DNA of 64,000 bases, taken from the NCBI GenBank assembly GCA_037974665.1, contig CM075772.1:38351052-38415051 (forward strand), written 5' to 3'. Made by a program: the position numbers and the translations under genes. Below the pieces are notes generated by a model. That model was given only the letters and a program-made list of their open reading frames with translations, was not told the origin of the DNA and searched no databases. Positions 29,609 through 64,000 of the stretch are shown piece by piece. The first letter of the stretch is position 1; every line of letters starts with the position of its first letter. Source of the DNA: Ehretia macrophylla (taxonomy: Eukaryota; Streptophyta; Magnoliopsida; Boraginales; Ehretiaceae).

Positions 29609-29614
29609 GGTTTC

Positions 29615-30310: not shown

Positions 30311-30616
30311 AAACTGTCCACTTTGTCGAAGAAAGATTTGACCCGATAGTAAAGACTTTTTGTCACTAAACATAAACATTCTGAGACTCCATACCACACA
30401 AGTAAAACGTGGCTAATCTCTCATGCCAAGCTACTAGTCTAGAGATTGTTGATTGAGGTTATAAGTAATTTTTCTTCTTTTTCTGTTAATATAAGTCTAG
30501 GGTGTTGAGGATAGGTCTTTAATAGCCTCTGTAGATAATCTCTTGTAAAGTATTATTTATCTCGTATAATTGAGGTCTTAATTTTAGTAGCACATTCTTC
30601 AGTTGTCCTTAGGGTA

Positions 30617-37896: not shown

Positions 37897-38270
37897 TTAC
37901 AGTTTGGAGGCCAACCCCAGAAATTCAGCATGTTTCTTGGTCACTTGCAGTTTCAGCAAAGACTTCACAACTTGCTTCATTGTAGGACGTTCATCTGCAA
38001 TTCTATTTATGTATTTCATTGCTAACTCTGTAATTTCATGTCCATCAATTAAAGAAAAATCAGGGTCTGTGGTTAAACTTTCGTCCACAAGTGAAAGGAA
38101 GGACTTTCTGCTGCCATTTTCTGATTCACAAGATTCAAACAGACCCCATGCCCAAGAATAAAGGAGAGGTGCATTGGAGCGCCTTTCTTCTTCTGTATCG
38201 ACTCTTTTGGTTATTAGGTTTAACAATACAACCCCAAATGCAAAGACATCTGATTTCTTTGACCAATTAC
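37897..38270 (-). other. Gene B exon 5 (kinase C-lobe)
   Basis: The TCTGATAG acceptor at 38271 is followed by GNWSKKSDVFAFGVVLLNLI. The frame is open for 124 codons to TAA at 37897-37899 and includes RIADERPTMKQVV, the conserved Arg region of subdomain XI. It shows no damage. Confidence 0.85.
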
Positions 38271-38622
38271 CTATCAGAAAATGCCCAAAAGCTATTAGTA
38301 AATGATAGGAATATAAATTCAAGACTTACTGCTTCAAAACATAAAAAGCATCTCTCACATCATGAAGAGAAAATCAACAGCATCAGGGAATACTCCCATA
38401 ACTTCCATAACTTCAGTTATGATGAGTGATACCAAGTGGATACCGCATTTTAGGAATTTTATAACTGCAAGGCAAGGCTAAGATGATAGCAGGAAATGCC
38501 TAATTTCACAACTTCAGCACTTTGCTAGGACTACTCCAAAAAAAGCAAGAATCGAAATAGGATAAAAATCCCAATAGAGGCAAAGAATTGGTCCTAAACT
38601 AAGGGATGCAATACAGACAAGC

Positions 38623-39188
38623 TGTTGGAAAATTGAGGTGGAAGAATAATTGTTGAATTCTTCCATTGATTAGTAGTAGAAATAGTTACAATAGTTGTTG
38701 TTGGAGCACCATCTCTCCAACATTAATTTTGGAGATCGTGGCTCTATTGTTATGGCTCATGACCCCTAAATTGAGTAGCTCTTGTTGGGTACCCTTGAAG
38801 CTCTCTAGTTTAGGCGAATTTGAGAGCTTGGTTTTACAATATGCTTCTTCACCTATTTATACTACTCTTAAGTCGGTGCATTACCGACTATGTTAAAGTC
38901 ATGAAGCTTCATGAATTTTCTACTACAAATGAACATCAAATGCATTCTAGAGCATTCCTATTTTTTTATTAATTTCCTCAGAAAAATCTCTAAAGATTTT
39001 TCCACTTTGCTCATTCTTGAACACTCTAGAAATGTGCATTAATTTTAACAGCTTCTCAACTACAAATTGAATTATATGAATTCTTCATTTAACTAAGCAA
39101 TGATGCTTAATTAAATCTTAAATTTTTTTATTTATCTAATAAGTTAAGAGGCTTCATGACTGAGAAAAACTCATGTAAATATCTAACA
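38623..39188 (-). mobile_element. Solo LTR of a copia-type element, intron 4 of gene B
   Basis: Minus strand begins TGTTAGATATTTAC and ends AATTTTCCAACA. A TATA box (TATAAATA, 38854-38861 on the minus strand) lies in the middle, as expected for an LTR promoter. The flanks CAAGC and ATATT do not match, so either the boundaries are off, recombination between elements removed the duplication, or decay did. Confidence 0.55.
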
Positions 39189-39584
39189 ATATTAGCACAG
39201 AAACATTGTAGTCTCCACCATTCTGAAACATGGTAAATCAGTTTGATGACATGACTTATAGTCTATGGCATGTGGGTTGAATGAGTAGAGCAACGGTACC
39301 GTATGAATTGGAATTGACGATTGTAAACCAGCAGACTTCATCTCGTCTTTCAGTTCAGTAGAGCACCTACGCATTTGTTGCTTCACCCCTGTAGTTCCAA
39401 TTACAGTCATTAACTATATTATGTAGCAAGGCATTTTGGCAGAATCTGTATCAGGTTGGTCTTTCTGAAACTTTTACTTTGCAAAAGTCGTTTCCCCACT
39501 TCAAAACCAGTATCGAGGAGAAAATACAAGTAACAAATCAGACTTCAAATGGTAGTAATTATAATGTTCAGATCACAAGATCAG

Positions 39585-39815
39585 TCATGCGTATCGTTAG
39601 CATAGAAAAATGCTGATGCTACAGTCTACAAAAGTAACTGAATAGACACTTTGAAATTCCAAGAATATAGTTGTTCCAGGTTCCCTCCCATTAGTTTCAC
39701 TCATGCATATCATTAGCACACAGAGTTGCTGATGCTACAGTCTACTAAAAAGCAGCTGAAATAGATGGCTTTGAAGTTCTAAGAATGTGATTGTTCCACA
39801 TTCCATGATAGTACA
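39585..39815 (+). repeat. 116-bp tandem duplication in intron 4 of gene B
   Basis: TCATGCGTATCGTTAGC at 39585 and TCATGCATATCATTAGC at 39701 start two copies that share GCTGATGCTACAGTCTAC and a GTTGTTCC-type end. Confidence 0.85.
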
Positions 39816-40474
39816 AGTTTCTCCTCTTCTCTTTCCCCCCCTTTAGTAGTGTTCAATTTCCTTCTTGTTCTTCAAAGGGGAGGGGGAAGGGGGACTTTCG
39901 CTCAGCCGGGTGCAAAGGGGTGATGTGCTCATCTACGACATGCCGAATCAAAACAACAAAAGTATTACATCTGTTGGCGTTATATTCTTTGAACTGAAAT
40001 TGAACAATATACAAATTCTTTCTCCGAAACTCATATATTTCTTAGTCCTCCTTTGGAGGTTCTCAAGTTCATTTCCTTCCACACAATTGACAAGAGATAT
40101 AAAAGCAGCCTCCTACAATATCCACGCCATTTGTATGTCTTTCCCATAATCTCCAGCTAAACAAAACCTCCCGTATTGCACAAGCCATAAACCATTTTGC
40201 TACAAGTTTCACAAATGATCTTCCCATGACACAACATATTGTAAGTGACGGATGTTTCTTCACCTTTGTAGACCCAAATACCATTGGTTTTTTTTTTTTT
40301 TGGTTTTTTCCCCCCTTCCCCGCACCCCCATACAAATAGATTAACCCTCCCATCTTAATTACTTTTTTCTTATGGAGAACAGAATAATTTGGGTAATGAA
40401 AAGAAACAATGGATACAGGATACATATATTGACTTGGAAATAGCACCTCACTTACAGTTGACAGTTTCACATAC

Positions 40475-40592
40475 CTGAGCATCCAATATTTGGGTCAATG
40501 TAGCCATAGCATCCATTACTTTCATACATCAACGTACTGGTGAAAATTCCACCGCTAATCATGCCGAAGCCGTATAATTTGGGATTGTATTC
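40475..40592 (-). other. Gene B exon 4
   Basis: 118 bp between GATGCAG and GTATGTG borders. It encodes EYNPKLYGFGMISGG and, further on, CYGYIDPNIGCS, that is, the activation segment with GFG in place of DFG. Confidence 0.8.
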
Positions 40593-40717
40593 CTGCATCA
40601 AAAATTATAAACATTTATATACCACTTCAAGAAACAATGATTTATCCTCCCTTTCAACAAATCAAAGACAATGACAACTTGCAAACCGAAATCACAAAAA
40701 TAAGGTGCAAATGAGAC

Positions 40718-40854
40718 CTCATCAACCACAATATGAGCTGCAGCAATATTGCGAACCAAGAATGGTTTATATGTAGGACCTCCAGCATGCAAAAATTTGA
40801 GAAGGCGAGCAATTCCAAGGGCAACCTTGATCCTTTGGAGCCAAGTAAAGCTAT
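40718..40854 (-). other. Gene B exon 3
   Basis: 137 bp; the acceptor is CCCATAG and the donor GAG|GTCTC. It encodes SFTWLQRIKVALGIARLLKF (alpha-E) and the catalytic-loop equivalent VRNIAAAHIVVDE. Confidence 0.8.
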
Positions 40855-41599
40855 CTATGGGTAAAGCACAACTTAGCATCAGTAATAAATTCAACATGAT
40901 ATTCAAATACTTTTTTTTTTAACTAAAATACTATTTCAAAAAAAATGCATAAAGGAGTTTCAACATTTTTATGAATCTGAGGACTCAAGAAAACAGCACT
41001 CAAACGTGAAATCCAGCAAGAATCTACCCAGAACATTCCAAAGAAGACATTTACAGAAGATAATCCATCACCCCAAGGTACCTTTAAACCCCCACGAAGC
41101 TCTTGTAAGGGAATTGTATAAGATGATTTCCTTTGCCCTCATACATCTTCTTTTCTCCATTTCATTCCTGTTTAATTAAATATGATGTTACAAAAGCATT
41201 CTAATCACTCTATCTTGACTGATTGCTGGAGCATTATTTCTAAGCAGTTCCATAGTTCTTTCAAGTTTCACCCTCTTACCCATAATATAAAATCCAGGTA
41301 TTCTACCACTACCTCCTTTTCTCGAGACAAACTACTGTAATCACAGCCAGGTCATTTAAGTAATTGTAGAATCAATATGAAGCCAATACAAATTAAATCG
41401 GTATATATCCTAAGCGAGTCATCTGAATTCTTGACATAGCAGGGATAAGATTCGAATCATGTTCCAATGGTAGAGGCAGGGCAAAGTAAGGTTAAGAACA
41501 AACAAAATTTCTGCCCATGTATTATGAATCCTGTCAATTTAATGAAGGTGCAGCCTTCTGCCTACATTTTTATTTTATGTCAGTACTCAGTTAAAGCAT
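40855..41599. other. Intron 2 of gene B, part 3' of the copia insertion
   Basis: No gene is seen. The part next to the copia matches gene C sequence after 63387. Confidence 0.6.
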
Positions 41600-41604
41600 G
41601 TTTC

Positions 41605-42373
41605 TGTTGGGAGGAAACCTGAAATCAAAACACAAACAACAAATGCACAGCGGAAATAACACCCTCCCACCTTGTATAAACCTGTTAGGAAGCAACAAAT
41701 AGAGCCAACAACAATATGCACAAATCTGAAAATTCCAGAAAATAGAGCAACACCAAGATTTTAACGTGGAAAACCTCCCCAACGTGGAGAGTAAAAACTA
41801 CGGGACCGTAGTCCACCCAAAAACTTCCACTATCAACAAATAATAGGTACAAGAGAGTCTTATCTAGTTGCAACTAGAGGCATATACAATGCATTCACCA
41901 AGAATAACATATTCTTGCAAATATAACAACACAAGAGATATTAAACCAAGAATAGGAGAGAAATCACAAAAAACGCTGCTACTGTTCACGCAGCAAAAAC
42001 GGCACTTTGAGAGTTCCGATCTGAAATCTGACCATACAGATTGAAGACCTACGAGTTGTGAACGTGCACACAAAATTTCAGCTCAATCGGACCACAAATG
42101 ACCCTCCGATTGTCGATTTGATGAAGATGGCGCAGACTGAAATTTTTGCTCTTTTTCTCACTGTTTTTCTCTCTCCGTTTCTTTCTCTCTCTCTCTCGTT
42201 TTTTTTTTTTTTCACTCTCACACACACCACATGACAGATTGACTGATCTGTCTTCACCCTTTTTTTTTTTTTGTTTATTGTTTTTCTCTTTTTTTTTGTT
42301 TTGTTTCTTTTGGTCAAAAAGCAAAAGCAAAAGCAAAATAATTACCAACCCACATGGGTTGGTCTATACAACA
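41605..42373 (-). repeat. 3' LTR of the gene B copia
   Basis: 769 bp; preceded on the minus strand by a purine tract (GGTGAGGGAGTT). Confidence 0.95.
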
Positions 42374-42388
42374 AACTCCCTCACCAAC

Positions 42389-45300
42389 TCATGTGGGTGG
42401 GTCAATCAACCCGGCAACCAAACGACATATCTCAAGCTTCTCTCTTGGCAACGCCTTCGTCAACATATCGGAGCCATTATCATCTGTGTGAACTTTTTCA
42501 AGTTTCAACAACTTTGAATTCAAAACATCCCTAATCCAATGGTACCTCACATCAATATGTTTCAATCTTGAATGAAATGAAGAATTCTTACCAAGATGTA
42601 TTGCACTCTGATTGTCGCAATACAAGACATAATCATCTTGCTCAAACCCAAGTTCTTCCAGAAACTTTTTCATCCATAGCAACTCCTTGCATGCTTCAGT
42701 TGCTGCGATGAACTCTACTTCAGTAGTGGAAAGGGCAACACACTTTTGCAATCTCGATTGCCATGCCACAGCTCCCCCTGCAAAGGTAATCAAGTAACTC
42801 GAAGTAGACTTACGAGTATCAACATCTCCAGCCATATCAGCATCTGTGTAACCCACAAGTATAGGCTTCTCACATCCAAAGCAAAGTCTTAGTTTGGATG
42901 TGCCTCGAATATATCTCATAATCCACTTCACTGCATTCCAGTGTTCTCTCCCAGGATTTGAGAGAAAACGACTCACCGTACCAACTGCATGTGCTATGTC
43001 TGGCCGTGTACACACCATAGCATACATCAAACTTCCCACTGCTAAAGAATATGGAACATTCTGCATATCTTTCTTTTCTTCATCTGTAGAAGGACACTGT
43101 TGAGCACTTAGCTTAAAGTGAGTAGCAAGAGGAGCACTAACCACTTTAGCTTTATCCATGTTGAACTTTTGAAGTACTTTCTCGATGTACTTCTCCTGTG
43201 ACAAATACACCTTTTTGCCATTTCTGTTTCGATTGATTCTCATGCCAAGAATTTGCTTTGTCGGTCCTAAGTCTTTCATAGCAAAAGACTTATTCAATTT
43301 TTTCTTCAACCTGTCAATTCTTGAAGAATTCATGCCAATAATCAACATATCATCAACGTATAGCAACAAGATAATAAAATCATCATCATAAATTTTTTGA
43401 GAAAAGACACAATGATCCGAAAAAGTTTTCTTGTAGCCTTGCTCCCCCATAACAGATTCAAACTTCTTATACCATTGTCGAGGTGCTTGTTTCAAGCCAT
43501 AAAGACTTTTCTTCAGTTTACACACATAATCCTCTTTTCCTTTTTCTTTCAACCCCTCCGGTTGCTCCATATAAATTTCTTCCTCCAAATCACCGTGAAG
43601 AAAAGCAGTTTTTACATACATCTGCTCAATCTCCAAATCAAGGCTAGCAGCCAAACCCAGAACAACTCGAATGGATGACATTTTCACAACTGGAGAGAAA
43701 ATCTCATCAAAGTCAACACCTTTTCTCTTACTGAACCCTTTCACAACCAGTCTTGCTTTGTATCGTGGTTGTGAAGTATTTTCTTGTTGCTTTAACCTGT
43801 AAACCCATCTGTTTTTCAAAGCTCTTTTGCCTTTAGGCAACTTCACCAACTCAAATGTGCAATTTTCATGCAAAGATTTCATCTCATCTTGCATAGCTTC
43901 CATCCACTCATTTTTATGTTTATCATCCATAACTTCTTCAAAGCTTTTAGGCTCACCTCCATCTGTCAATAAAACATACTCATCAGAAGAGTATCTTGTG
44001 GAATGCTGTCTATCTCTAACGGACCTCCTAAGTGGAACTGTTGGTGGAGTCTCAAGCTGACTATCATCATCACCTACCTCAACCTGTGTAGGACTTTCTG
44101 CTTGATCATCATTAGGGAAGTTACCTTGATCATCATCTTCAACCTGCTCTGTTGCTGGTGGCGTTGAAGGCACTATATCAAGATCAGCCAATTCATCTAA
44201 CTGTGGGGGTAACTCTTTCTCTGCTTTGCCAATGTCCTGAATTGTTTGATCCTCCACAAATACAACATCTCTGCTTTTGATAATTTTCTTCTCAACTGGA
44301 TCATATAGCCTGTAACCAAATTCATCAAGGCCATAACCGACAAATATACATTGTCGTGTCTTCACATCAAGTTTGGATCTTTCATCCTTTGGAATATGTA
44401 CAAACGCCTTGCATCCAAAGACTCGCAAATGATCATAAGAAACATCTTTCTCTGTCCAAACTCTATTAGGAACATCAAGCTTTAATGGAATACATGGTGA
44501 GAGATTCAACAAATGAACAACTGTATTCAAAGCCTCACCCCAGAATGAATGTGGTAGATTTGCATGTGAAAGCAAACATCTTACCTTTTCAATCAAAGTT
44601 CTATTCATTCTCTCAGCAACACCATTCAACTGTGGTGTCTTTGGCGGTGTCTTTTGATGCCTGATACCTTGCTCTTTGCAATACTTGTCAAATGGACCAC
44701 AATATTCACCTCCATTATCTGTACGGATGCATTTCAATTTTCTTCCTGTTTCTCTTTCAACGGATGCTTGAAACTGCTTGAATACATCCAACACTTGATC
44801 TTTAGACTTCAAGGTATAAGCCCAAGTCTTCCTGGAGTGGTCATCAATAAACGTCACAAAGTAAAGAGAACCACCAGGTGTTTTAATTTTCATCGGACCA
44901 CACACATCCAAATGTACCAGCTCAAGTACATTTTCCTTCTTGGAAGGTGGATGACTCTGGAAAGAAACCCTGTTCTGCTTTCCTGCAAAGCAATGATCAC
45001 ATTTTCTCATATGTGGATCTGTTAGTCCCGATAAAATTTTCTTCTTGGATAAAACTGAAATTCCGTTCTCACTCATGTGACCCAGTCTCTTGTGCCACAA
45101 CTCTGTTGCATCTTCATTTTTCACTGCATTGACAATGCTCCTGGAAACCTTTGAATTCATCGAATACAAAGTTGAGCATTTCTTACCTTTTGCTACAACC
45201 ATAGAGCCCCTTGTAAGTTTCCATTGACCATTACTGAATGTATTAAGAAAACCTTCATCATCAAGTCTACCTGCAGAGATCAAATTCAATCTAATGTCAG

Positions 45301-45544
45301 GAACATGCTTCACATCTTTAAGAATTAATTTGCTGCCATTTTCAGTCTCCAAGCAAACATCTCCTGTACCGACAACTTTGGCGACACCATCATTGCCCAT
45401 TTTCACAACCCCAAAATTATTAGCTGTATAAGACATAAAAAAGTCATTTCGAGAAGTAGCATGAATAGAAGCACCACTGTCAATCACCCAACATGTATCA
45501 TGACATGCAAGATTAATAACATCACTGTCATATACAATGAAAAA
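42389..45544 (-). CDS. Copia pol polyprotein (protease, integrase, RT, RNase H) after an amber codon
   Basis: The frame directly follows TAG 45545-45547 and is open to 42389. First comes the aspartic protease (WVIDSGAS, codons near 45490), then the GAG-pre-integrase block HKRLGHMSENG. The integrase DDE triad follows: DVCGPM, RTDNGGEY and a Glu in NGVAERMNRT. RT has the YVDD box (LLLYVDDMLIIG), and RNase H has GYTDADMAGD, LSTTEVEF and YCDNQSAI. RT motif A reads QMYVKTAFLHG: the invariant catalytic Asp is Tyr (codon 43616-43618), so this copy should be unable to reverse transcribe by itself. It ends 16 bp before the LTR. It could still be expressed and trans-complemented; that is inference. Confidence 0.93.
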   Translation of the reverse strand, partial: FFIVYDSDVINLACHDTCWVIDSGASIHATSRNDFFMSYTANNFGVVKMGNDGVAKVVGTGDVCLETENGSKLILKDVKHVPDIRLNLISAGRLDDEGFLNTFSNGQWKLTRGSMVVAKGKKCSTLYSMNSKVSRSIVNAVKNEDATELWHKRLGHMSENGISVLSKKKILSGLTDPHMRKCDHCFAGKQNRVSFQSHPPSKKENVLELVHLDVCGPMKIKTPGGSLYFVTFIDDHSRKTWAYTLKSKDQVLDVFKQFQASVERETGRKLKCIRTDNGGEYCGPFDKYCKEQGIRHQKTPPKTPQLNGVAERMNRTLIEKVRCLLSHANLPHSFWGEALNTVVHLLNLSPCIPLKLDVPNRVWTEKDVSYDHLRVFGCKAFVHIPKDERSKLDVKTRQCIFVGYGLDEFGYRLYDPVEKKIIKSRDVVFVEDQTIQDIGKAEKELPPQLDELADLDIVPSTPPATEQVEDDDQGNFPNDDQAESPTQVEVGDDDSQLETPPTVPLRRSVRDRQHSTRYSSDEYVLLTDGGEPKSFEEVMDDKHKNEWMEAMQDEMKSLHENCTFELVKLPKGKRALKNRWVYRLKQQENTSQPRYKARLVVKGFSKRKGVDFDEIFSPVVKMSSIRVVLGLAASLDLEIEQMYVKTAFLHGDLEEEIYMEQPEGLKEKGKEDYVCKLKKSLYGLKQAPRQWYKKFESVMGEQGYKKTFSDHCVFSQKIYDDDFIILLLYVDDMLIIGMNSSRIDRLKKKLNKSFAMKDLGPTKQILGMRINRNRNGKKVYLSQEKYIEKVLQKFNMDKAKVVSAPLATHFKLSAQQCPSTDEEKKDMQNVPYSLAVGSLMYAMVCTRPDIAHAVGTVSRFLSNPGREHWNAVKWIMRYIRGTSKLRLCFGCEKPILVGYTDADMAGDVDTRKSTSSYLITFAGGAVAWQSRLQKCVALSTTEVEFIAATEACKELLWMKKFLEELGFEQDDYVLYCDNQSAIHLGKNSSFHSRLKHIDVRYHWIRDVLNSKLLKLEKVHTDDNGSDMLTKALPREKLEICRLVAGLIDPPT

Positions 45545-45547
45545 CTA
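45545..45547 (-). other. In-frame amber codon between gag and protease
   Basis: The context is CAG TAG TTT. The frame before (gag) and after (pol) is the same, so one codon separates two otherwise continuous frames. It is either a nonsense mutation or a read-through site. Confidence 0.9.
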
Positions 45548-46387
45548 CTGTGTAGTGGTAGCAACTCGATCTTTACCACTATCATCATCTTTCTTCTTAT
45601 CATTATCTTTGTTTTTATTTTCATTTTGCAATATTCTGCAAAATCTTTTGATATGCCCCATTTTTCCACAGTGATGACATTTGACATTACTATACTTCCC
45701 TCTTGACTTGCTTCTACTACTTCCTCTATTTTTCGAACCCTTTTGCTTATTCCCCCCCCCCCCCCCCCCCCCCCCCCCCCTAGATTCAGTAACCAGAGCA
45801 TCTGACTCTGAAGAGGAATTTTGTGACTTTTTTCTAGCTTTTTCATTTAAAAGTCTACTTTTAGCTAGATTCAAAGTGATTTCACCATCTGGAGTTGAGT
45901 TACACAATGACATTCTAAATGTCTCCCATGAGTCTGGTAAAGTACCAAGAAGCAATAATCCCTTAAGTTCATCATCTAATTTAATTCCAGTGGCAGCTAA
46001 CTGATTTATAATCCCAAGATATTCATTTACATGATCAGTTATAGGGGTTTTATCTCGATATCTTAAACCTATCAATTGTTTTATCAAAAACAACTTGTTG
46101 CTCCCACACTTTTGTGCATACAATTCTTCAAGTTTGTTCCATAATGTGCGTGCATGTGTTTCTTCACTAATGTGGTTCATTACATTATCATCTACCCATG
46201 TCCTGATATACCCACACACTTGTTTGTGAAATAACTCCCATTCTTCATCAGTTTTACTCACGGGTTTTTCAGTAGTAAACACCGGTAGATAATAATCTTT
46301 CACATACAACAAGTCTTCCATTTTTCTTTTCCACATGGCATAATTCAAACCATTCAAAAATATCATTCTACTTGTATTAACTTCCAT
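45548..46387 (-). CDS. Copia gag (nucleocapsid) protein
   Basis: 280 codons from ATG 46387. The N-terminal capsid-like region has NYAMWKRKMEDLL and is typical of copia gag (UBN2-type). A zinc knuckle CHHCGKMGHIKRFC (C-x2-C-x4-H-x4-C) lies near residues 237-250, followed by a Lys/Asp-rich tail. A run of 29 C on the plus strand (45752-45780) encodes Arg and nine Gly in frame, which is unusual for the family. The start is the first ATG after the 5' LTR. Confidence 0.92.
45752..45780. repeat. 29-base C homopolymer in copia gag
   Basis: Uninterrupted C on the plus strand. Its length keeps the gag frame open. Confidence 0.9.
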
Positions 46388-46433
46388 TATTTATACAAAA
46401 CAACAATTCAACAACCAAGCTTTGAGGTCACTT

Positions 46434-47200
46434 TGTTGGGAGTAAACTCGAAATCAAAGCACAAACAACAAATGCACAGCGGAAATAACACCCTCCCACC
46501 TTGTATAAACCTGTTAGGAAGCAACAAATAGAGCCAACAACAATATGAACAAATCTGAAAATTCCAGAAAATAGAGCAACACAAAGATTTTAACGTGGAA
46601 AACCTCCCCAACGTGGAGAGTAAAAACCACGGGACCGTAGTCAACCAAAAAACTTCCACTATCAACAAATAATGGGTACAAGAGAGTCTTATCTAGTTAC
46701 AACTAGAGGCATACACAATGAATTCACCAAGAATAACATATTCTTGCAAATATAACAACACAAGAGAGATTAAACCAAGAATAGGAGAGAAATCACAAAA
46801 AACGCGGTTACTGTTCACGCAGCAAAAACGGCACTTTGAGAGTTCCGATCTAAAATCTGACCGTACAGATTGAAGACCTACGAGTTGTGAACGTGCACAC
46901 AAAATTTCAGCTCGATCGGACCACAAATGACCCTCCGATTGTCGATTTGATAAAGATGGCGCATACTGAATTTTTTGCTCTCTTTCTCTCTGTTTTCTCT
47001 TTTTGTTTTTTTTTTTCTCTCTCTCTCGTTTTTTTTTTTTTCACTCTCACACACACCACATGACAGATTGACTGATCTGTCTTCACCTTTTTTATTTTAT
47101 TTTATTGTTTTTCTCTTTTTTTTATTTTGTTTTCTTTTGGTCAAAAAGTAAAAGTAAAAGCAAAATAATTACCAACCCACATGAATTGGTCTACACAACA
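46434..47200 (-). repeat. 5' LTR of the gene B copia
   Basis: 767 bp, matching 41605-42373. Most differences are transitions plus length changes in T-rich runs. Confidence 0.95.
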
Positions 47201-47404
47201 GTTTCATCATGTCACCTAATGAATGAAGTGATTTCACCACTAAATAAAAATCCAATCTCTATAGCATAAGACTAGATTTTTGTTGAGTATTTGCAATTTA
47301 GTTAGACTAGCACATTAACTTGGATCAGAAGTCAACATGAATAATCACAGTGGCAGTAACTGTAGATAAGATTTGGCTGATATAGGGCATAGAATAATGC
47401 ATAC

Positions 47405-47549
47405 CGTTAGGGACAAGGTTGTGAACAGTATCCAGCGGGAAAAAATTGTAGACAGCACAAAGATGTTCACCGTCCCAGCAATATCTATAAAACTCTATCA
47501 TCCCTGGGTGCTTTAACAGTCTTTCATGTCGAAGCAAAATATATTCATG
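47405..47549 (-). other. Gene B exon 2
   Basis: 145 bp between CTTTCAG and GTATGC. It encodes HEYILLRHERLLKHPGMIEF and CWDGEHLCAVYNFFPLDTVH (alpha-C to hinge). The same length and phase are found in gene C at 63040-63184. Confidence 0.85.
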
Positions 47550-47651
47550 CTGAAAGAAGACAAAAGACGCATCACTAGTATAATATTGACAATCCAGAAG
47601 AGACACCTAGTAACTAGAGAGTCAAGAATTTTAATTATTCAAATAAGGAAC

Positions 47652-47865
47652 CATCACTCTTGCTAAATTAACTCCCTGGGAACTCTCATCTGAAGCTTCC
47701 CATATCTTCACCATTGAAGGTTGTTTTACCATGCCTAAACCGCGGAAATCTTCCTTTGTACACTTTACCAAATTGGAAAGTACCAACATAGTTTTCTTCA
47801 CGAAGATTCTTAGTGAACTTCAGCACTTCCTTATATTTTATCCTTGCAGCATTCCCAAAGTCCAT
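47652..47865 (-). other. Gene B coding exon 1, one-base frameshift
   Basis: The exon follows GGAACAG and starts ATG GAC TTT. It encodes the N-lobe to the VMVK strand. Its 214-bp length is one base more than a multiple of three; the gene C counterpart is 231 bp and phase 0. The extra base lies near the AAAA at 47723-47727. Confidence 0.78.
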
Positions 47866-47876
47866 CTTTTTGACTA

Positions 47877-49140
47877 CTGTTCCAATAAAAATAGATAGAA
47901 ATAAGACTGAAGGTGAAGAAACTAAAAATCAGTAAAGAGTAGAAGAAATGGAAACTACATTATTCTACAAATTCATCATCAATTTAGATAAGAAGTAGAT
48001 GCCTCAAGCAATGACAACATACATGTAAGTATGTAACTACAAGTAAGTATGCATTACAAAGACTAGGAACTATGCAGCTAGAGAAGATATCCCTATATAA
48101 GGATGGGCAGAGAAGGGTGCGTTCTGCATTATATCCTAAAATTGCATAATCGGGACTCCATTACCTTGACACCCATCCATTACTTTCTAACCTATATCAT
48201 CCAAATTCACCTTCACACTCTTCTGTCCCATAAAAGGAGCAAATGTGTAGCAGAAACCAGTAGCCAGTCACGATATCTTATCACAAATTTAAATGAACCT
48301 CAAGGTATTGAAACAGAATATTTAATTAGCTTATGGAGACAAATCAATTATGCATGCCAACATTGTAGAGACTACAAGTTTTAAGTATTTCCATCACTAA
48401 GAACACGCTCCAATCTCGAATTCGGTCACAGGGATCATATAAATAAGCCTGGGAGTCAACACCCTGATGACAAAAATAAGTTTTAACTCGTCTGAAATGA
48501 AAAAAGTATCACCTTGATACACAATAAGTTACTGTTCCTATAGAAAGCATGCTTACAATTGCATAAACTCCTTTAATTAAGGTTCAGAAACCTAAGGGCA
48601 AAAGCACTCTTTTTTCAAAATTTCAAAGCTTTTATACCTACAAGAGCTACTGAAGCGCCTAAATTCAACATCTTTATATATAAAAGGGCTAAATTTCTTA
48701 ATTTTCACATGCTAAAAAAAAACCATCTTTATAATTATGCATGAAAAATACATAACATACTGAATTGCTAAAAAGGCCAACAGAATTTTCACATGCTAAA
48801 AAAAATTCAAAACAAATAAAAATAAGAAATAAAACACAATCACCATTGTGCACAAGCACATGCATATCTACACATAATTTGAGAAAAAAACGAAGAAAAA
48901 TATAAAGCGTCCAGCTACGAACTTAGGAAGTTTTCAGATAAAAGGCTAAATATTTCTAATTTTCACCCGCTTGAAAAAAAAAACAAAAAGAGAAAAGAAA
49001 AATAATCCAAAAATATATATATAACCATGCATGAAAAATAAATTTTTTTCAAAAGAAAAAAGATAAAGAGCTTTTGAAGTTGATGATGAGATCACAAACG
49101 GTCTTTGGGGTCTCTATAATGGCCGGAGAAGCTTTGAAGC

Positions 49141-49173
<33 letters not shown>

Positions 49174-49260
49174 ACACGACAAAGCAGCTTCTTTTTTTTC
49201 TTTTTTTTTTTGTCAAAGACAAAGCAGCTTCCAAAGTGTGTTTTTTATATTACGTATTCA
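47877..49260 (-). other. Gene B 5' leader and first intron, homologous to gene C
   Basis: Reverse complement of this stretch aligns with 54570-55714, 58968-59066 and 62655-62700, that is, gene C upstream sequence with its two LTRs removed. A conserved early segment (GAAGCTGCTTTGT..., GTTTGTGATCTC near 49090-49230) is probably the 5' UTR exon. No convincing coding. Confidence 0.65.
49143..49172. repeat. 30-base G homopolymer in the gene B leader
   Basis: Uninterrupted G. The homologous position in gene C (near 54620) has only ordinary mixed sequence (TACCTCCTTCAG). Confidence 0.9.
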
Positions 49261-49269
49261 CAACTTCGA

Positions 49270-49840: not shown

Positions 49841-49841
49841 A

Positions 49842-49985
49842 TAGGCTAGTGGTAGGTTACCCCCTTAGCAATTGAAGACTAGGGTTCGAATCTCATAGCG
49901 GTGGGGGCAGATGGGGTTTAGGAGTTAAAAAATAAAAAATAAATTCTTGGACACCCTAATAAAAGAACATCATTAAGCTTTTTTC
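49842..49985 (+). mobile_element. SINE-like tRNA-derived repeat
   Basis: GGCTAGTGGTAGGTTACC is a good A box and TAGGGTTCGAATCTC a good B box about 32 nt later. A body with CCTAATAAAAGAACATCATT follows. The 3' boundary is uncertain. Confidence 0.6.
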
Positions 49986-51960: not shown

Positions 51961-51965
51961 ATTAA

Positions 51966-54355: not shown

Positions 54356-54569
54356 ATCGGACTAGATTCGAAATTGGTTTTGTTTGGACTTAAATAATGG
54401 GTTGAGGTATCCGACAAAAATAACATAATGATAATGAGTTGAGGTTGTGTCGGGCCCGAGCTCGTGCGTCATGTAAACCCCATCATGTAGTGATAGAAAT
54501 ACGCTTTTAAAGTTAAAATCTCGTTATCTCTTTAGTATGCGTTAAACGCTGTTACCCTTCAATGAAAAA

Positions 54570-55714
54570 AAAAAGAAGAAAAAAACACACACACTTTAAA
54601 GCTGCTTTGTTGTGGTGTACCTCCTTCAGAGCTTCTCCTGTCCTTTTGCAGATATAGGTCCTCAAGTGCAACCAAACTAGTATGTGATCTCGTCTTCTAC
54701 TTCCTTTTTCTTTATTATTTTTCCATATCAATATGTTTTTCGGTTTAATTTTCTTTTTTGGTTTTTGTTTCTTCTTTTCCTCCTCCTCTTTTTTTTTTTT
54801 TTTAAGCATGTGAAAATTAGAATTTTTAGCTTTTTATATGTAACTTGTTAACTTCGTGGCTAAACACCCCCCTCTGTTTAACATTCTGTAGGTTCATGTA
54901 TGTGCAGGAAGGTGAGTTTTTATTTTTTATTTTTTTCTTTTCTTTTAGCTTGTAAAATTTCTTTTAGCCTTTTATGTACGAAGTTGTTAGCTTTTGGGCC
55001 CTTGTGGCTCAACTTTTTTTTTTATAAAGGAATTATGCATGTTTAATTTATATTTTATGCACAAAGATTTTTTTTTCTTTTCTTTTTGTACTTTCGTATT
55101 CTTTTCTTTTAGCATGTGAAAGTTAAGAATTTTAGTTCTTTTATAAATAAAGATATTGACTTTAGGCGCTTCAGTAGCTTTTGTATGTATAAAGGCTTTG
55201 AAATTGTGAAAAAGAGTGCTTATGCACATAGGTTATGCAATTGTAAGCATGCTTTATATAGGAAAAAATGACTTATTGTGTACCAAGGTGCTAACTTTTT
55301 CACTTCAGACAAGTTAAAACTTATTTTTGTCATCAGGGTGTTGACTGCCAGGCTTATTACATGATCCCTGTGATTGATTTTGAGATTGGAGTGTGTTATT
55401 AGTGATGGAAATACTTAAAACTTATAGTCTCTCTGTCATCATCAGAGTGTTGGCATGCATAATCGGTTTGTCTCCATAAGCTTATTAAATATTCTGTTTC
55501 AATACCTTAAGGTGCTTTTAAGTTTGTGATGATTCTATTACGTGCGTGATGTCGCGAGTGACTACTGGATTCTGCTACACATTTGATGGAAGATTGTAAA
55601 AGTGATAGGGGATGATATAGGTTAAAGAGGAGTTGATGGGTGTCCAGGTAATGGAATCCCCTCGACGCAATTTTAGGATACAAGACACCCATTCTTTGCC
55701 GATCCTTATATAAG
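54570..55714 (+). other. Gene C 5' leader/intron, first part
   Basis: Homologous to the reverse complement of about 49230-48092. Shared marks include AAGCTGCTTTGT, AGTATGTGATCTCGTC, the GCTTTATATAGGAAAAA region and GGTATTGAAACAGAATATTTAA (as its complement). It stops exactly at the solo LTR. Confidence 0.65.
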
Positions 55715-55719
55715 GATAT

Positions 55720-58700
55720 TGTAAGGCCTCGATCCCTCACGAGATCAGGATTCTTATTTATTATGCTATTTTCAACCCAATTCCAAACTCTGGGTATGAA
55801 ATTTAGGAAAAAACGAACGGAGTTTCTCCTATATAGAGGTCTATCTAGAAACCTGCCAACAATCACATACAAGACTTGAATCACAATCAACCATTCATAC
55901 AACCTAGCTTTCAAGATTCATAAAGCCAACCAGCTCCTCAAGGCCATCCGAGCTTTGGAACCCAACAACATATCACACAAGCATGCAAAATTAAATCCAT
56001 TGAAGTTTTATCTTTTTAAACCACTTATCATACTACTCTATATTATCAATCAAGCTTTCTTATAATTTATGTCCAACCAACTAACTAGTTTTCATCGTTC
56101 ACACAAGCATGCACTACTAAGTAATAAAGTAAAGCAAATAGAAGATATTACAAGTCCACTAGTACCTAATCATCAAACAAAACTAAAACTTTAATATTAC
56201 ATTCCTTGATATAACATAAATATATACATGGGCACAAAGTCTCAAATACAATACAAGCATATCATGATCACATTCTTCCATATTTTATATACTCATAGAG
56301 CAAGCAGGTCACACAAGAGGCAATCCATCCTGAAATATGTTGAAAAGAGGAATGAGTAACCAAGTTACTCAGTGAGGAGGTGATGCAATATACTGGGCGT
56401 GCATTATGATATGCAGATACAAGAAATCACATATATAACATAAACAACAAGATTAAATAGCAAGTAGTTAACTACATTAAAAAGGATACGGTTCCACTTC
56501 AAGTCTTCAAACTCAAACTACGAGCCATGAACTTCACGCAAGTGCCGGCAAACCCTTACTCCAACAAGTTGGGATACTCCAAATGTATCCCGATCCTACG
56601 ACCCTTTCTCCTGAGGTAGCACCATATGCCCAGCAGGTGAACCATGCCTCTAGGGTAATGGAATATACTCAGCGAGAAAGGAAATAGGCACCATGGTAGT
56701 CGAGGGAGCACGGCAAGCCTGACACCGCCCGTGTTTCTCGATGCTACCATGTCCGAAAAAGTTGCTCAACCCGACACGAATTCAAGAATTCACGAGATAA
56801 TATCAAACAACCATGAGTAACCAAGAGGTAACAAATAAATGATACATGTAAACTTTATCAATTAGCTAACTCATATAATCTAAAAACAATGAAATAAACT
56901 AAGATGCACAAAAGGGTTAAAGACTCCCTCACCTTGGATCCGACTAAATATGCAAGAAAATAGCTCCGATTACCCCAACCTCCTCGAACTAGCTTGGACA
57001 TGTACCCTAGCGTGTTCATATAAGTTTAGCACTTTAGTAATTATCTATATTAATTTCTAACTTAACTTTTGCTTAACTCAATCCACAACAATAGAAGTTA
57101 TATATAATCACCTTTATATCATATTAGCACATTGCCCAAGAAATCACACAAATGACTCTAAAGCATTTCCTTAGTCTTGCAAGGGCATTAGCTACGTTAC
57201 CATCTAACAAGTTAAACTCCCTAACTAACTTAACTTCGTTTATACCACAAGGAATATCAAGTTAAACTTCTAATCAAGATAACTACTTTAACACTTAAAC
57301 ATAATTCAACTATAACATGTTCTAAGAGTCATTATCATGCTTATTTACTCAATACAACATATACAACTCAATTACAAATCAAATATAGCAATTAAGTAGT
57401 CCAAATAACTAACTAAGCAACAAGTTCAACCAATTCATATAAATTCTAACAAAACCCTTTTCCAATTGCTTACGAATTATGTTCTAAACTTCACATACGA
57501 TATGGAACTTCAAATCTGACTTTACCAATCTCATTTAGGCACATTATGATACACCTAAATACCATGAAACCACATTTCTAAACATGATTATACAAAAATA
57601 CCAAAAAGCTCCTTAAGTAATTTGAACTACAGTTACCTAATTTGATTAACTAAACCACGTCATAAATACATTTTAGAGGCTTTCTAACACGTCTAAAGTT
57701 ATCTAGCTATTCAAACATGACAAATTCAAACCTTCATTCCAAAGTCCTCTTTTTCAACTAGGCAATTCTACTTCCATACGAAATTCAAAACTCCAATTCT
57801 ATAAACCAATCATATTACATCCCTAAGGATATCAAATGACACATATTAAAGCCATGAAAACCCGCTTTGGAGGCAAAAGCTCGGAAAAGCCCCAAGTGGG
57901 TTTTAACTACGACTACCCTATCCGGACCCCAATTCCAAGCAACGAAAGCACCATAAGTGCTTCCATACCCGAAGAATACCTAATCTAAAGCTCAAACGTG
58001 CCCGGATTGCATTATGTGAAAAATCTCATTTTTAAAGTTAACAAATTTTGCATTTTAACTTATTTTCGGGCAATTCAACCTCACGTGAGCCTTTGTCTAG
58101 TTTCACTAATATCTAAAGCACCTAAAGGAAGCCCCAATTCAATCTAATTAGCAAATTATATCAAAATCCCAAATTTTCGGATTTCACTTTTCACTGCACT
58201 ATTCATCATCTTCCTCAAGTGAAATCTTGTTAAAAACTTAGTTTCAAGCTATACCAATGCATATACAAGGTCTCTACCATGTAATAATACTATATAGAAC
58301 AAGAATCAAACATGTTATGGCACATTAATGGCAAAATCCGAAAATTGCAAAATTGAACATAAACTTTAAAACTCCATAAAAATGTAAAAATTCCTCACAA
58401 TGATGTTGTAGATGCAAGGAACAAGCTTAAGCTAGGTTGAAATCCCTTGTAGAAGCTTAGTTGACATCCAAGATCAAGATTTGAAGATGAAGAAATCCCT
58501 CTTTTGTTTGCATAGGGCTGTCGGTTTTAAGGGAAATTTTTGTTTTAGTTTTATGAGTATTTTGTTTATATGAGTAGTGTATTGTATATATGTATGAGTA
58601 GGTTATGATTTATTAAGTCAAATGCCACAATTACTTGATCAAATGAGCTTAAAACTCTAATTAAATGCTAACTAATTCAAACTAAGGTTGTTATGTACGT

Positions 58701-58962
58701 AATACTATTCAAATGATGCAGAAAACATTTTCTAATTGTATGCTCCAGAGCTCAAAAGTCCAAAATAAAAATTTTTCGATTCCTATTATGTATCATATGA
58801 CCTAGGAAAAATATTAAATCGCATATCTAAGACAGTAAATTTTCTTATGAATAGTACCTCGGAAATAAACAATTAAAGAAGACAAGAAATGCACGTAAAA
58901 TGCACAAGTAGTTTATGCAACATTTATTTAAAATATGTGTGATAAAATTCTCGGGCGTCACA
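55720..58962 (-). mobile_element. Solo LTR, 3.24 kb, Tekay/Del-like, inverted
   Basis: On the minus strand it begins TGTGACGCCCGAGAATT and ends GGGATCGAGGCCTTACA. The perfect duplication GATAT flanks it (55715-55719 and 58963-58967). Sequence blocks are shared with 27111-29608 and 59072-62649. The undisturbed site is readable in gene B at 48087-48091. No internal domains are attached. Confidence 0.9.
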
Positions 58963-58967
58963 GATAT

Positions 58968-59066
58968 CTTCTCTAATGACATTAGTTCCTAGGCATTGCA
59001 ATGCATACTTATTCGTAGTTACATATATGTTGTTATTTCTTTTCTGAATTGGTGAATTGGTACGCT
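58968..59066 (+). other. Gene C leader/intron, piece between two solo LTRs
   Basis: About 100 bp (ATTAGTTCCTAGGCATTGCA, ATGCATACTTATTCGTAG) matching the complement of gene B 48090-47960. Confidence 0.75.
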
Positions 59067-59071
59067 AATGT

Positions 59072-62000
59072 TGTAATACCCCAGACCTAGCATGTAGTGA
59101 ATAGTGTCTATTTGCATATATTTATGTATTAATTTAATTGATTGGTTGAATTTAAGTGTTTATTCTAACTTTATATATATATATTTAGTAACTTTACTTT
59201 TAGTATATCTTTAAGTGTGTAATTAGCACTTAATTAAATTATATAAAATTCTTAATCTCTTATTTTATTATTTGTAAAATGTGATATTACTTTCTTATAT
59301 CTAATAAATTAGTTTGCATCATTTTAAAATGAGCCGCGAGTCCGGGGTGATTTTTGAAGTACGTTATTTTTTTAAATTTTAAATTTTATTTTCACTATAT
59401 GTTTATTTTTATGCATACGTTCATAATTTTTATGTGCATGGTGTTTCAGGAAGGTTGGTTGAAAATTGATTAGTATAACAAAGGAATAGTATTCGGGGTG
59501 TAAAATTTGACTATTTTATTTTTCAAAATTTATATTTTTCCTTTATTACTTACCTTATTAGACGTATTTCGTCCATTGGAATTATGTGCATAACATGTCG
59601 AGAACGTGAGATATAAAAATATTAGTGTCCTGAATGAATAGTGTTATGAAAGAATAGTAACTTTTTGTAGAATTTTTATTTGGACTTCTAGTGAATTAGC
59701 TAGACTTTGGACTTTTATTAGACCCTTAAATATGTTTAATTAGATCCAATTTACTAACCCAACTCATTATTTTCTTAGTCTATTATCTATATAACATAAT
59801 AAGAGCAAAAAAAAAAAGTGCAAAAGCTTAAAACACTGTAGTAGGGCCGAAAATCAGCATAGAAGGAGGATAATAGATTTTTGCTCAACAAATCCTCATT
59901 CCAAGCCAAGCCAAGCTAGGTGCAAGTGGTTTAGGGTGTTTATTAGCCTCCTAAGAACTCTTACGCGCAATAGGTGAGGGATTTCATGCTTGTTTGTGCA
60001 TTTTAAAAATGTTGTTCATTTCTTGAATTCTTAGATTTGTTATCAAATGTCTATGCAATGCTCAAATATGCTTATGTATGTTGTATATAGGTAGTAGATA
60101 CCTTATTTATGCTATTATATCGTAGTTTAAACGGTTGAATTCGTTTGTTGATCGTATGGCATGAATAATGACGTTTTTCTAGGGTTTTATGTAATTGTGC
60201 GATATGAATTGATTCATTGCTTCTAGTAGGTGCCTTAGATGTTAATAAAGATAGTTTGATAGCCACATGACGTTGAATTGCTCAAAAATTAGCTAACACA
60301 TGAAATAGGCGACTTTTAAAAAGGGGTTTTGGGGTTAATGCAAATCCGGGTTAATTTGGCCATTACATCTAGTGTTCTTAGGCTATATAGGTGCTATATA
60401 TGCTTTGCTAAACCTCGGTTGAGTCCCGATTAGGGTACTTGTAGTACAAACTTACAAAGGAAAAATTGAGACTTTTGTGCTAAACGAGGGTAATTGGGTA
60501 GTTTCTAGGATCCTAGGGGTGCCATAAGGGATAATTAAAAGTATGGAATAGCCCGCTCACTTAACTAGAACATTAACTTGTGTTTGGAAGAAAAATGGCT
60601 TGTGTTACAAAGGGGTTTTGGGTCAAACATAAATCCGGGTGAATTTGGTTGATATATTTGGTGTTCTTAAGGTAAGTAGGGACTAAATGTGCTTTTCTAA
60701 CTCTTAGTTGAGCTTTGGTTAAGATAATTGTAGTACAAGCGCACAAAGGGGTAATCGGGGCTTTTGTGGCTAATTCGGGTTAATGAATGATTTCAAGGGT
60801 TCTAAATGTGCCATAATGTGTAACTAAAAGATTAGAATAGTTAGTTGGTGAATCTTGAGCCTTAGCCTTCGGTTTGGAGTTAAATGACTTAGGATAACAA
60901 AAGGGAAACTCGAGGTTTTCATGCTTAGCCTTTGAATTAGCTTTGGTGCTTGTATATCTTGCCTTTACATGTTATTATATGGCATTTGTGAGCATTTCGT
61001 GAAGTTTCGTGATCATCGGTCATTGACCCCTTTGTGTTGGTATAGTTATTTTTATATTTAATGCTTATATCTTGTTATAATGTTTATATTACTTGTACTT
61101 TGTTAAGATCAAACTCTAATAAATATTGTATGCTAAGTGAGTAGAACTATAAGGATAACTCATCTAGTTATATGATTATTGATTATTGTAATTAAAAGTA
61201 ATTGAAATTTATAACTTATGATCTTAACTTAATGGGATTTGATGCTTCTAATATATCTTATGTTGTCTAATGATATGACAAGGGGAACATTGTAGCTTAA
61301 TTGTGTGTGGGTTATGAACTTGTATGAATAAGTGATTATAAATCTAGCTTCTAATGTTGTAGGGTTTAGTTAAATAAGAGTTGAGTTGGAATTGATATAG
61401 TTAATTGCTAAACTTATATGAACACCCTTGGGTTGCATACTGGACCTAATTCGCGGAGGTGTAGTAGAAAGGAGCTATTCTTTTAGCGTGCTTGGTTTAA
61501 TTCCAAGTGAGGGAGACTTCATATTTATGTGCATAATAGTTTGTTTACTTGTACTTAGATTATGTGCACTTATTGTCCATATATTGTATGTGAGGGCAAC
61601 CTACTTTGTTGTCCCTCAATCATGTGTTTATTGATTAATTCTATTGTTATCATTTTGAGTGCATTGCATCGTGGTTGCACAATCATTTGGGCATGGTAGT
61701 GTCGTGGAAACCGGGTGGCATCGGGCTTGCTGGTCTACCTCGGCTACCATGGTTGCCCAGTCCCTCTCTCGCTTGGGATGCCGCCTAGGGAGAGTTGGGT
61801 CGTAGGATTTCGGAGTACATCTGGAGTACACCCACTGGAGTGATTGGGGATTTGACGGCATATTGATAGTGGTTCGTAATTGAAGAACCAAGTGAATCGT
61901 ATCATTTTTGATGTGTGGTAACTTGTTGTTTCAATTGCTCTTTCGTTGTAAAATGCTTTATTTGTATTAGCTGCTGCATTGCACGCCCCAGTAGACTTTA

Positions 62001-62649
62001 TCCCTCACTGAGCAATTGTGATTGCTCATACCTCGCTAAACATGTTTCAGGTGGTGCAGTTGGAGGAATGGCCTTGGTTGCTTTGTGCTATTGCTTGAGA
62101 TTGGAGTGTTTGCCTGCTAAATTGTGGAAGATTTTGTTTGTATTATGTCTTGTTCTATTTTGTGCCTATAGGTTTGTATATATTTGGAGTTGTTGAAGAA
62201 TTGTAATAGTTAGATTAATGTATGATTTGAATGGCAGATTGTAATAGTTTATCCTTAATTTCCTTTATGCTGCTTGCTTGTGTGTTAATGAAAGTTAACA
62301 GTTGTTTGACTTTAGTTCATAAAAAAGTCTAATGGTTAATATAGAGTGGTATGATAAGCGGATTAAAAGAGACAAGGTTTTAAGGATTGTTAAATGCATG
62401 CTTGGGTGTGTTTTCTATGTCTTGCTTAAGGGCTGGTCGACCTTGAAGTTGGGATCGTTAGAGCTGGAGTTGTTGGAGTTAGAGTTTAGTTGTATTGTGG
62501 CTTATATTATGTTTACAGGTTTCCAGAATGTCCACGGTATAGGGGAGACTTTGTCCGTTTTCCCTAAAATCAGTGCCCGGGTTTGGAATTGGGTTGAGAA
62601 TAGCATAGTTATTAGAGCCCCGGGTCTCTTAAGGGAACGAAGCGTTACA
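59072..62649 (+). mobile_element. Solo LTR, 3.58 kb, Tekay/Del-like
   Basis: Begins TGTAATACCCCAGACC and ends GGAACGAAGCGTTACA. The perfect duplication AATGT lies at 59067-59071 and 62650-62654. Typical blocks shared with the other copies are GCTCAACAAATCCTCATTCC (59883), GCACGCCCC-(A)GTAGACTTTATCCC and CATGTTTCAGGTGG. The pre-insertion site is at 47957-47961 in gene B. An internal ~300 bp near-repetition (AAATCCGGGT(T/G)AATTTGG blocks at 60343 and 60630) lengthens this copy. Confidence 0.9.
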
Positions 62650-62700
62650 AATGTAGTTTTCATTTCTTGAACTCTTTTCTATCTATTTTGATTAGAACAG

Positions 62701-63184
62701 TGGCCAGTAAGATGGAACCTAATTGTGTTAGAAAGGTGAAATATGAGCTAAAATATGACGATTTGGTGAAGTACACTGACAACTTTAGTGAAGAAAACTT
62801 TCTTGGTACTTTTCAATGTGGCAAAGTGTACCGTGGAAAAATTGAGCAGTTTACACATGAAATACAACATGTAATGGTGAATATATGGGAAGTTCCAGAA
62901 ATATATGTATATTACAAGGGAGATAATGAAGCCAGACTGATGGTTTGTTGTTTGAATAGTTAAAATTCTACTCTCTAATTAGTATCTTTCCAGATCATCA
63001 GTAGCATACTTGTAATGCTCTTTTTCTGTATCGTTTCAACATGAAGTCACGTTGCTTCGACATGAAAAACTGATAAGCCACCCAAGGATGATAGAGTTGT
63101 ATGGATATTGCTGGGATGGTAAACAACTTGGCGCCGTCTACAATTTTAAGCCATTAGATATTGTTCATAACCTAGTCCCTAAGG
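62701..63184 (+). pseudogene. Pseudokinase gene C, first two coding exons (continues beyond the window)
   Basis: Coding exon 1 (62712-62942; acceptor GAACAG at 62700) is open for 77 codons. It has the glycine loop FLGTFQCGKVYRG but Asn instead of the ATP Lys (VMVNIWE). Exon 2 (63040-63184) encodes LLRHEKLISHPRMIELYGYC and YNFKPLDIVHNLVPK and ends at GGTAAGT. Lengths and phases equal gene B. The acceptor before exon 2 reads TTTCAA where gene B has TTTCAG, so normal splicing should fail. Together with the missing Lys and the two LTRs upstream, this suggests decay. Exon 3 is expected beyond 64000. Confidence 0.78.
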
Positions 63185-64000
63185 GTAAGTATCTTTATAT
63201 TCTCCTGTATCGCCTGAATCGGATTTACAATTACCATCGCTGTTATTAGTGATGTTGACTTTTGGTAACAGTACATAATGTACAAGTCTAATGGAATTGT
63301 AGATAGTTCACAAAAATGTAATTTTATACTAGAGGGTTTGGATTTTTTCTCAGTGGTGAAATCACTTCCACATTGAGTAACATGGCCAAACATGCTTTAA
63401 CAGAGTACTGGGATAAATAGAAAAGTTTAGGCAAAAGGCTTCACCTGTTTTAAGTTAATTGGATTCGTGGTACATTAGCAAGAAATTTGTTGTTCTTTAC
63501 TTAGTAGTCTGCTGCTTGATCCCTGGGAACATGGTTTGAATCCTATCACTTGCTATGTCACGAATTCAATTGATTGCCCTAGGATTTATATTGATTTAAT
63601 TTGAATAGACTTCATTTTGGTTCTGCATTTGCAATTACTGGTTTAAGTGACCTGGCTATGATGGTTGTAGTTTATCAAGTGAAAAGGAGGTTGTGGTAGA
63701 ATGCCTGGATGTTATTTTATGGTTTTAAGTAGGATAGAGCTGCGAAACTGCTTAGTAATATTGCTCCAGATATAGAGATCATCAACACGCTGTTGTAACG
63801 TGATAGTTAATAAAAGAGGTTTGAAATGGAGACTCGAGTAGATATGAGAAGGGAAGAAATCAACTAAGTTTTATATTTTTTCTTATATTGTCAAGAGCTT
63901 ATTTAGAGTGATATGTTGTCTTTAATTAATGTGTTCATGGGTATGTATCAGGTAGATTCTTGCTGGATTTCATGTTTGAGTTCTGTTTCTTTAAGTGCTT
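63185..64000 (+). other. Gene C intron 2 (partial)
   Basis: Aligns with gene B intron 2 with the copia taken out; the empty site is CAAAC at 63387-63391. No exon was found before the window ends. Confidence 0.65.

Follow-up and report, generated by a model that had tools for sequence, protein, structure and literature searches.

In dating by paralogous empty sites, a single copy of the target-site duplication (TSD) in a homologue represents the pre-insertion state. The same logic applies to the stretch of Ehretia macrophylla DNA described here (contig CM075772.1, called C9 below, positions 38,351,052 to 38,415,051; 64,000 nucleotides, hereafter the window), in which two kinase-like genes, B on the minus strand and C on the plus strand, lie head to head. 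Gene C is interrupted by two elements read here as solo long terminal repeats (LTRs), E1 and E2, and intron 2 of B by a Ty1/copia element. The case differs from standard empty-site dating in that the partners sit on the same chromosome as inverted paralogues and that the insertions can be placed on an internal phylogeny given by the five pair copies. For Del-lineage retrotransposons, the accessible text of PMC4029996 gives LTR lengths of 1143-4831 bp. BRASSIKINs are described, in the available part of PMC6907349, as tandemly linked, lineage-specific RLCK-VII pseudokinases and are reported there as restricted to core Brassicaceae. The limits of LTR dating are ascribed mostly to gene conversion in the accessible portion of PMC7251063.

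In a self-comparison of the window, the regions 40.98-49.1 kb and 54.7-64 kb were similar in inverted orientation, with three long inserts interrupting the match. With the elements masked, B (reverse complement, 49099 to 40980) and C (54680 to 63999) formed a single BLAST alignment of 2665 columns with 69.8% identity and 1303 bits, as an earlier note on this DNA had expected, and the base-level alignment was continuous through all three proposed insertion sites. A chance alignment was rejected, the best of 100 dinucleotide shuffles of C scoring 35.4 bits. The TSDs of E1 (GATAT), E2 (AATGT) and the copia element (GTTTC) were located at 55715-55719 and 58963-58967, 59067-59071 and 62650-62654, and 41600-41604 and 47201-47205, respectively. 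At the aligned positions B contains one GATAT and one AATGT (Table 1), and the base-level alignment confirmed the coordinates, TSDs and undisturbed sites that had been proposed for E1 and E2. The copia site in C was likewise empty and at the proposed position; its sequence, CAAAC, differs by one mismatch from GAAAC, the reverse complement of the TSD. No element was shared at matching positions of B and C, and with a single TSD copy at each partner site each gene keeps the ancestral sequence of the other.

A search of the genome (1.58 Gb, 20 contigs) showed that the inverted paralogues are not a private two-copy pair but part of a family with 48 matches. The head-to-head pair is present five times on C9, at 38.40 (the window), 41.82, 81.23, 40.60 and 40.73 Mb. 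The pair at 41.82 Mb matches the window at 98-99% identity and contains all three elements. All three sites are empty in the pairs at 81.2, 40.60 and 40.73 Mb; two of the five pairs have all three elements and three have none. The sites are single and intact at 40.60 Mb; the copia site at 40.73 Mb has a small change and the E2 site at 81.2 Mb has substitutions, both being still empty. Pieces adjoining the sites in the element-free pairs are mostly 94-98% identical to the window (87% for one leader piece at 81.2 Mb). Kimura two-parameter (K2P) distances between these pairs and the window were 0.023-0.030, 0.030-0.045, 0.037-0.053 and 0.071-0.084 for the B exon-1/2 region, the B leader, C exons 1-2 and the spacer, respectively. 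In a tree of the family, the five B copies form one clade and C belongs to a separate large clade. Because three other copies of the pair lack all three elements, the elements inserted after the pair had been copied, and that copying is far younger than the B/C split, intron 2 having a K2P of 0.360 between B and C. The claim that all three elements landed after the duplication is supported by the empty sites and strengthened by the three element-free pairs, and the insertions are younger than had been claimed.

We consider the following history very probable. B and C would be old inverted paralogues of an RLCK-VII-like family amplified on one chromosome, often in head-to-head orientation. Block copying would first have carried the B-C pair to several locations along that chromosome. 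Then, in the lineage of the window and the near-identical block 3.4 Mb away, three LTR retrotransposons would have inserted, two Ty3-type elements into the leader region of C and one copia element into intron 2 of B. The Ty3-type elements would have collapsed to solo LTRs through LTR-LTR recombination, and the matching sites in the partner gene and in the three other pair copies would never have been hit and would keep the pre-insertion state. Insertion after duplication with the partner keeping its empty site is an ordinary, known kind of event; the cluster, the head-to-head bias and an anomaly of the leaders are the parts worth following.

The empty sites could also be read as secondary, the elements being older than the B/C split and cleanly lost from the partner by gene conversion with an empty copy. 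We regard this as very unlikely. A tract of anomalous B/C similarity (48722-48297) just upstream of the E1 site makes conversion plausible in the cluster, and the stretch that contains the E2 site (48091-47957) has a K2P of 0.18, below that of the introns. However, the surroundings of the copia site have 0.75-0.80 identity in 100-site windows, like the remaining intron 2, and the three further pairs empty at all three sites would require several independent conversions.

Both E1 and E2 have TGT...ACA ends and a 5-bp TSD, and they align with 60.5% identity over 2878 columns in opposite orientations. No full-length direct repeat was found within or beside either element, and the host gene resumes on both flanks. 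Searches with the 5' terminus gave 3432 and 1054 first-look candidates in the genome for E1 and E2, respectively, of which 40 were scored for each. A purine tract immediately precedes the terminus in three of four upstream slices of E1-type copies, from two loci. In E2-type copies a common purine tract stands immediately before the terminus in 5 of 20 upstream slices, the other 15 being without it; an exact polypurine pattern modelled on the E1 tract had no match for the E2 type, the upstream slices showing a different tract. Between two E1-type termini at the C7 locus, the one E1-type locus that this result covers, we found a gag domain (PF03732, E=3e-14). The chromodomain PF00385 matched there too, but weakly (E=0.0021) and below its curated cut-off. 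Among the 40 matches listed for the E1 3' end, six pairs lie on the same strand at spacings of 4.65-4.88 kb.

Judged by these purine tracts, the gag and weak chromodomain matches and the same-strand pairs, E1 and E2 are LTRs, and because they stand alone with intact TSDs they are solo LTRs, as the earlier note had called them. That E1 and E2 would instead be whole elements of 3.2-3.6 kb, either short non-autonomous ones or DNA transposons, is scarcely credible. In genome copies of both types a purine tract stands immediately in front of one and the same 5' terminus, gag and a weak chromodomain match lie between two E1-type termini, and the elements have 5-bp TSDs with TG...CA ends. In favour of this rival, the TGT...ACA termini are short and inverted, neither element has any frame of at least 200 amino acids, same-strand copies spaced 4.65-5.04 kb point to relatives whose internal region is short, and the far ends of the C7 LTRs were absent from the slices taken. 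For E1, taken as a solo LTR, the source was probably a chromovirus-type Ty3/gypsy element. The nearest known elements are plant chromoviruses of the Del/Tekay lineage, to which the C7 locus, with its gag and weak chromodomain match, might belong, judged by features. TGT...ACA ends, a 5-bp TSD and a very long LTR are shared by E1 and E2 with the elements described in the accessible text of PMC4029996; they differ from the Del elements there in occurring as single LTRs and in their final bases, which depart from the type A U5 motif. A third putative solo LTR of the E1/E2 type is present in the window at 27111-29609. It starts TGTGACGTCC and has GTTTC on its left and GTTTC one base past ...TTACA on its right; this copy, ending at 29608, fits the Del type A U5 motif as given in the same text.

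The element in intron 2 of B has gag and pol frames divided by one in-frame stop. Pfam matches were PF14223 in gag, and PF00665 (208-304) followed by PF07727 (562-806) in pol; gag with the integrase before RVT_2 is the order of Ty1/copia elements. Its LTRs are 94.2-94.3% identical, with a K2P of 0.060 (95% interval 0.044-0.079). The earlier note had proposed to date the duplication by setting the divergence of the introns against that of the copia LTRs, for which we obtained a raw ratio of 6.0 (95% interval 4.4-8.5). This dating is biased, because the LTRs diverge faster than flanking non-element DNA. Between the window and the 41.82 Mb copy, the copia LTRs had 20 differences in 1535 sites and the gene flanks 24 in 7285, a ratio of 3.95 (95% interval 2.1-7.5); relative to the gene flanks, E1, E2 and the copia interior diverged 6.2, 7.4 and 0.82 times as fast, respectively. 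The gene-flank set left out B upstream (15/714), C upstream (10/499) and the spacer (36/4455), which diverge faster. Relative to all non-element DNA (85/12953), the ratios were 1.99 (1.2-3.3) for the LTRs and 3.1, 3.7 and 0.41 for E1, E2 and the copia interior, respectively. Transitions in the LTRs (n=26) comprised 5 in CG, 3 in CHG and 18 in CHH context. Compared with the 41.82 Mb copy, the copia LTRs also showed 4.8 times more differences per site than the interior of the same element (20/1535 versus 11/4060).

Several points weigh against the proposed history. At 0.060, the K2P of the copia LTRs is higher than that of the gene flanks against the B copies without elements (0.023-0.045), and with the gene-flank yardstick alone it would place the copia insertion before the split from these copies. 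The conflict depends on the yardstick, because the LTR divergence is above that of the gene flanks but not above that of the spacer. A faster LTR clock removes or narrows the conflict with either correction, but the substitutions behind the correction number 20 versus 24 (or 85). Instead of being a locus of its own, the almost identical 41.82 Mb block may represent a haplotype that the assembly failed to collapse. The tree took in 30 of the 48 loci and was midpoint rooted, and its rows for C in the window and at 41.82 Mb start with about 66 bases of E2; the long branch of B at 81.2 Mb is artefactual, at least in part, because that copy carries an insertion. Two slices aimed at the far ends of the C7 LTRs had no E1 match, two further slices had only 20-base E2 matches, and a complete E2-type element was not among the copies examined. 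Finally, removal of an insertion by gene conversion from an empty copy is still conceivable, above all beside the leader. On balance we retain the order of pair copying followed by insertion. With three independent insertions present in two of the five copies of the inverted pair and missing from the other three, the locus is a well-controlled relative clock, and LTR DNA diverging two to four times faster than adjacent non-element DNA is a warning for LTR-based dating.

The leaders of B and C are unusually alike. The stretch 48722-48281 has a K2P of 0.112 between the two genes, compared with 0.34 in exon 1 and 0.36 in intron 2. Within it, 48722-48297 has 40 mismatches in 400 sites, and none of 10000 permutations gave so low a window. 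Stretches beside the leader are intermediate (0.24, 0.18 and 0.18), and exon 2 has 0.22. We consider that this similarity probably arose by exchange between the lineages, which is a simpler reading than constraint. Purifying selection on a shared promoter or 5' untranslated region is a possible but less favoured explanation. It would account for a leader far less diverged than exon 1 and intron 2, and homologous leader pieces were found across the family. However, the leader is not slow in general: between C and the 38.328-type copies its K2P is 0.35-0.40, not below the exons at about 0.29. Between B and 81.478m the leader has 0.15 against 0.31-0.32 in exons 1-2, and folding of the leader RNA was unremarkable (z 0.41), with no Rfam family found in the window. 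The B versus 38.328-type leader K2P of 0.20 fits neither exchange nor constraint neatly. Several of these pairwise leader values come from short local alignments (67-240 sites), which favour similar pieces. Values of about 0.5-1.4 for the leader against other subfamilies, taken from the multiple alignment, were judged to be misalignment and rejected in favour of the pairwise values; the exon and intron values were kept. The matching leaders pointed out in the earlier note are thus very similar, but because their similarity probably comes from exchange they are unfit for dating the B/C split. The B leader block (window 48288-49218) has no match at its place in the B copies at 40.60 and 40.73 Mb, which suggests that leaders are gained or lost within the pair unit.

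A search with the 50-residue B exon-2 peptide, in which 79 of 79 first-look candidates were scored, gave 48 matches (E<=0.001). Every one of them is on C9, in clusters at 33.7, 37.6-41.9 and 81.1-81.5 Mb. For the leader block, 42 matches were listed, again all on C9 (40 of 44 candidates scored). Exon-2 neighbours less than 20 kb apart (n=16) comprised 11 head-to-head, 5 same-direction and no tail-to-tail cases, and those 20-60 kb apart (n=20) comprised 2, 10 and 8, respectively; these counts are not independent, blocks having been copied. At 38.49-38.67 Mb on C9, head-to-head family pairs form a tandem array with a period of about 54-59 kb. The concatenated B exons matched the protein kinase domain PF07714 (E=5.3e-16) and also PF00069. 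The nearest solved structures to the B exon read-through, by sequence likeness, were the RLCK-VII kinases PBL2 (6j5t, E=1.1e-27) and BIK1 (5tos, E=2.6e-26), and the family can be classed as RLCK-VII-like by its likeness to solved structures.

As RLCK-VII-like putative pseudokinases in a linked cluster, the genes resemble BRASSIKINs, a comparison made by description. Set against BRASSIKINs, the VAIK-type Lys codon is present here in 27 of 30 exon-1 rows (absent in C of the window and in 38.328m, unreadable in B at 81.2 Mb) and DFG in 7 of 9 exon-4 copies (GFG in B of the window and at 41.82 Mb), and the HRD Asp is found in 0 of 19 exon-3 copies from the examined loci, all of which read NI at that position. 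The family is probably catalytically dead. In the literature searched, from which most subscription journals were missing, no paper describing this cluster was found. RLCK-like pseudokinase genes clustered in large number on a single chromosome, with a head-to-head bias, may be of interest for plant immunity or signalling. More speculatively, one ancient inverted duplication might have produced a head-to-head pseudokinase pair that served as the amplification unit over tens of Mb, with the facing leaders exchanging across the palindrome; we consider this doubtful. If true, promoter-leader regions would evolve in concert while coding parts diverge and decay.

B and C had been described as divergent paralogues with matching exons and phases. 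The structure and phases of exons 1-2 do match, but disabling changes were found in both genes. The window and the 41.82 Mb copy have the B exon-1 frameshift in common, for which an assembly error in the B homopolymer is still a possible source; the 81.2 Mb copy is unreadable there. The B copies at 40.60 and 40.73 Mb do not have the frameshift but contain stops in their exon-2 match. The exon-2 acceptor of C is AA in the window and at 41.82 Mb and AG at 81.2, 40.60 and 40.73 Mb; AG is present in 27 of 30 rows, the third row without it being 38.434p. Exon 3 of C contains a stop at both 40.60 and 40.73 Mb, and the exon-2 match contains one at 40.60 Mb as well. In the window, exons 3-5 of C fall past the end. 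The ratio of nonsynonymous to synonymous rates (dN/dS) for exons 1-2 (118 codons) was 1.02 (0.56-2.04), with 1.85 (0.90-4.95) for exon 1 alone and 0.43 (0.16-1.35) for exon 2 alone. In their original form, neither of the two window genes is likely to function. Immediately downstream of B exon 3, at 40657-40717, the putative intron is open and reads VSFAPYFCDFGLQ, a second DFG-like segment that was detected by tblastn (E<=1e-3) in four B copies and in no C copy.

Table 1. Positions in the window of the elements, empty sites, leaders and exons of genes B and C
Feature	Coordinates	Strand	Basis
B exon 5 (kinase C-lobe) and stop codon	37897..38268	-	tblastn; Pfam PF07714/PF00069 on concatenated exons
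B exon 4 (DFG-loop exon, reads YGFGM)	40473..40592	-	open frame, AG acceptor; tblastn to C and other copies
B exon 3 (HRD-loop exon, reads LVRNIAAAH, without catalytic Asp)	40718..40855	-	sequence comparison
Ty1/copia element in B intron 2 (LTRs 41605-42373 and 46434-47200)	41605..47200	-	repeats, open reading frames, Pfam, TSD GTTTC
B exon 2	47406..47549	-	sequence comparison
B exon 1, with one-base frameshift	47652..47865	-	sequence comparison
Empty site for E2 (AATGT) in B	47957..47961	-	base-level alignment
Empty site for E1 (GATAT) in B	48087..48091	-	self-comparison and base-level alignment
B leader block, unusually like the C leader (K2P 0.112)	48281..48722	-	pairwise divergence, permutation
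C leader, homologous to 48722-48087	55102..55719	+	self-comparison and base-level alignment
E1, solo LTR of a Ty3/gypsy element (probably chromovirus), TSD GATAT	55720..58962	-	ends, TSD, genome copies
C leader fragment between E1 and E2	58963..59071	+	base-level alignment
E2, solo LTR related to E1, TSD AATGT	59072..62649	+	ends, TSD, genome copies
C exon 1 (VAIK Lys to Asn; Lys kept in the other four C copies)	62712..62942	+	sequence comparison
C exon 2, splice acceptor AA not AG	63040..63183	+	sequence comparison
Empty site for copia in C (CAAAC, one base off the reverse-complemented TSD)	63387..63391	+	base-level alignment

Elsewhere in the window, 1.48-kb direct repeats at 15267-16745 and 22491-23971 are 92.7% identical, with TGTAG...CAACA ends, and are probably the LTRs of another element. 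A near-perfect palindrome at 30611-30938 (97.5% over 322 bases) is perhaps a fold-back element. The frame at 32449-33431 has a SWIM zinc finger and may be what remains of a MULE- or FAR1-like transposase.

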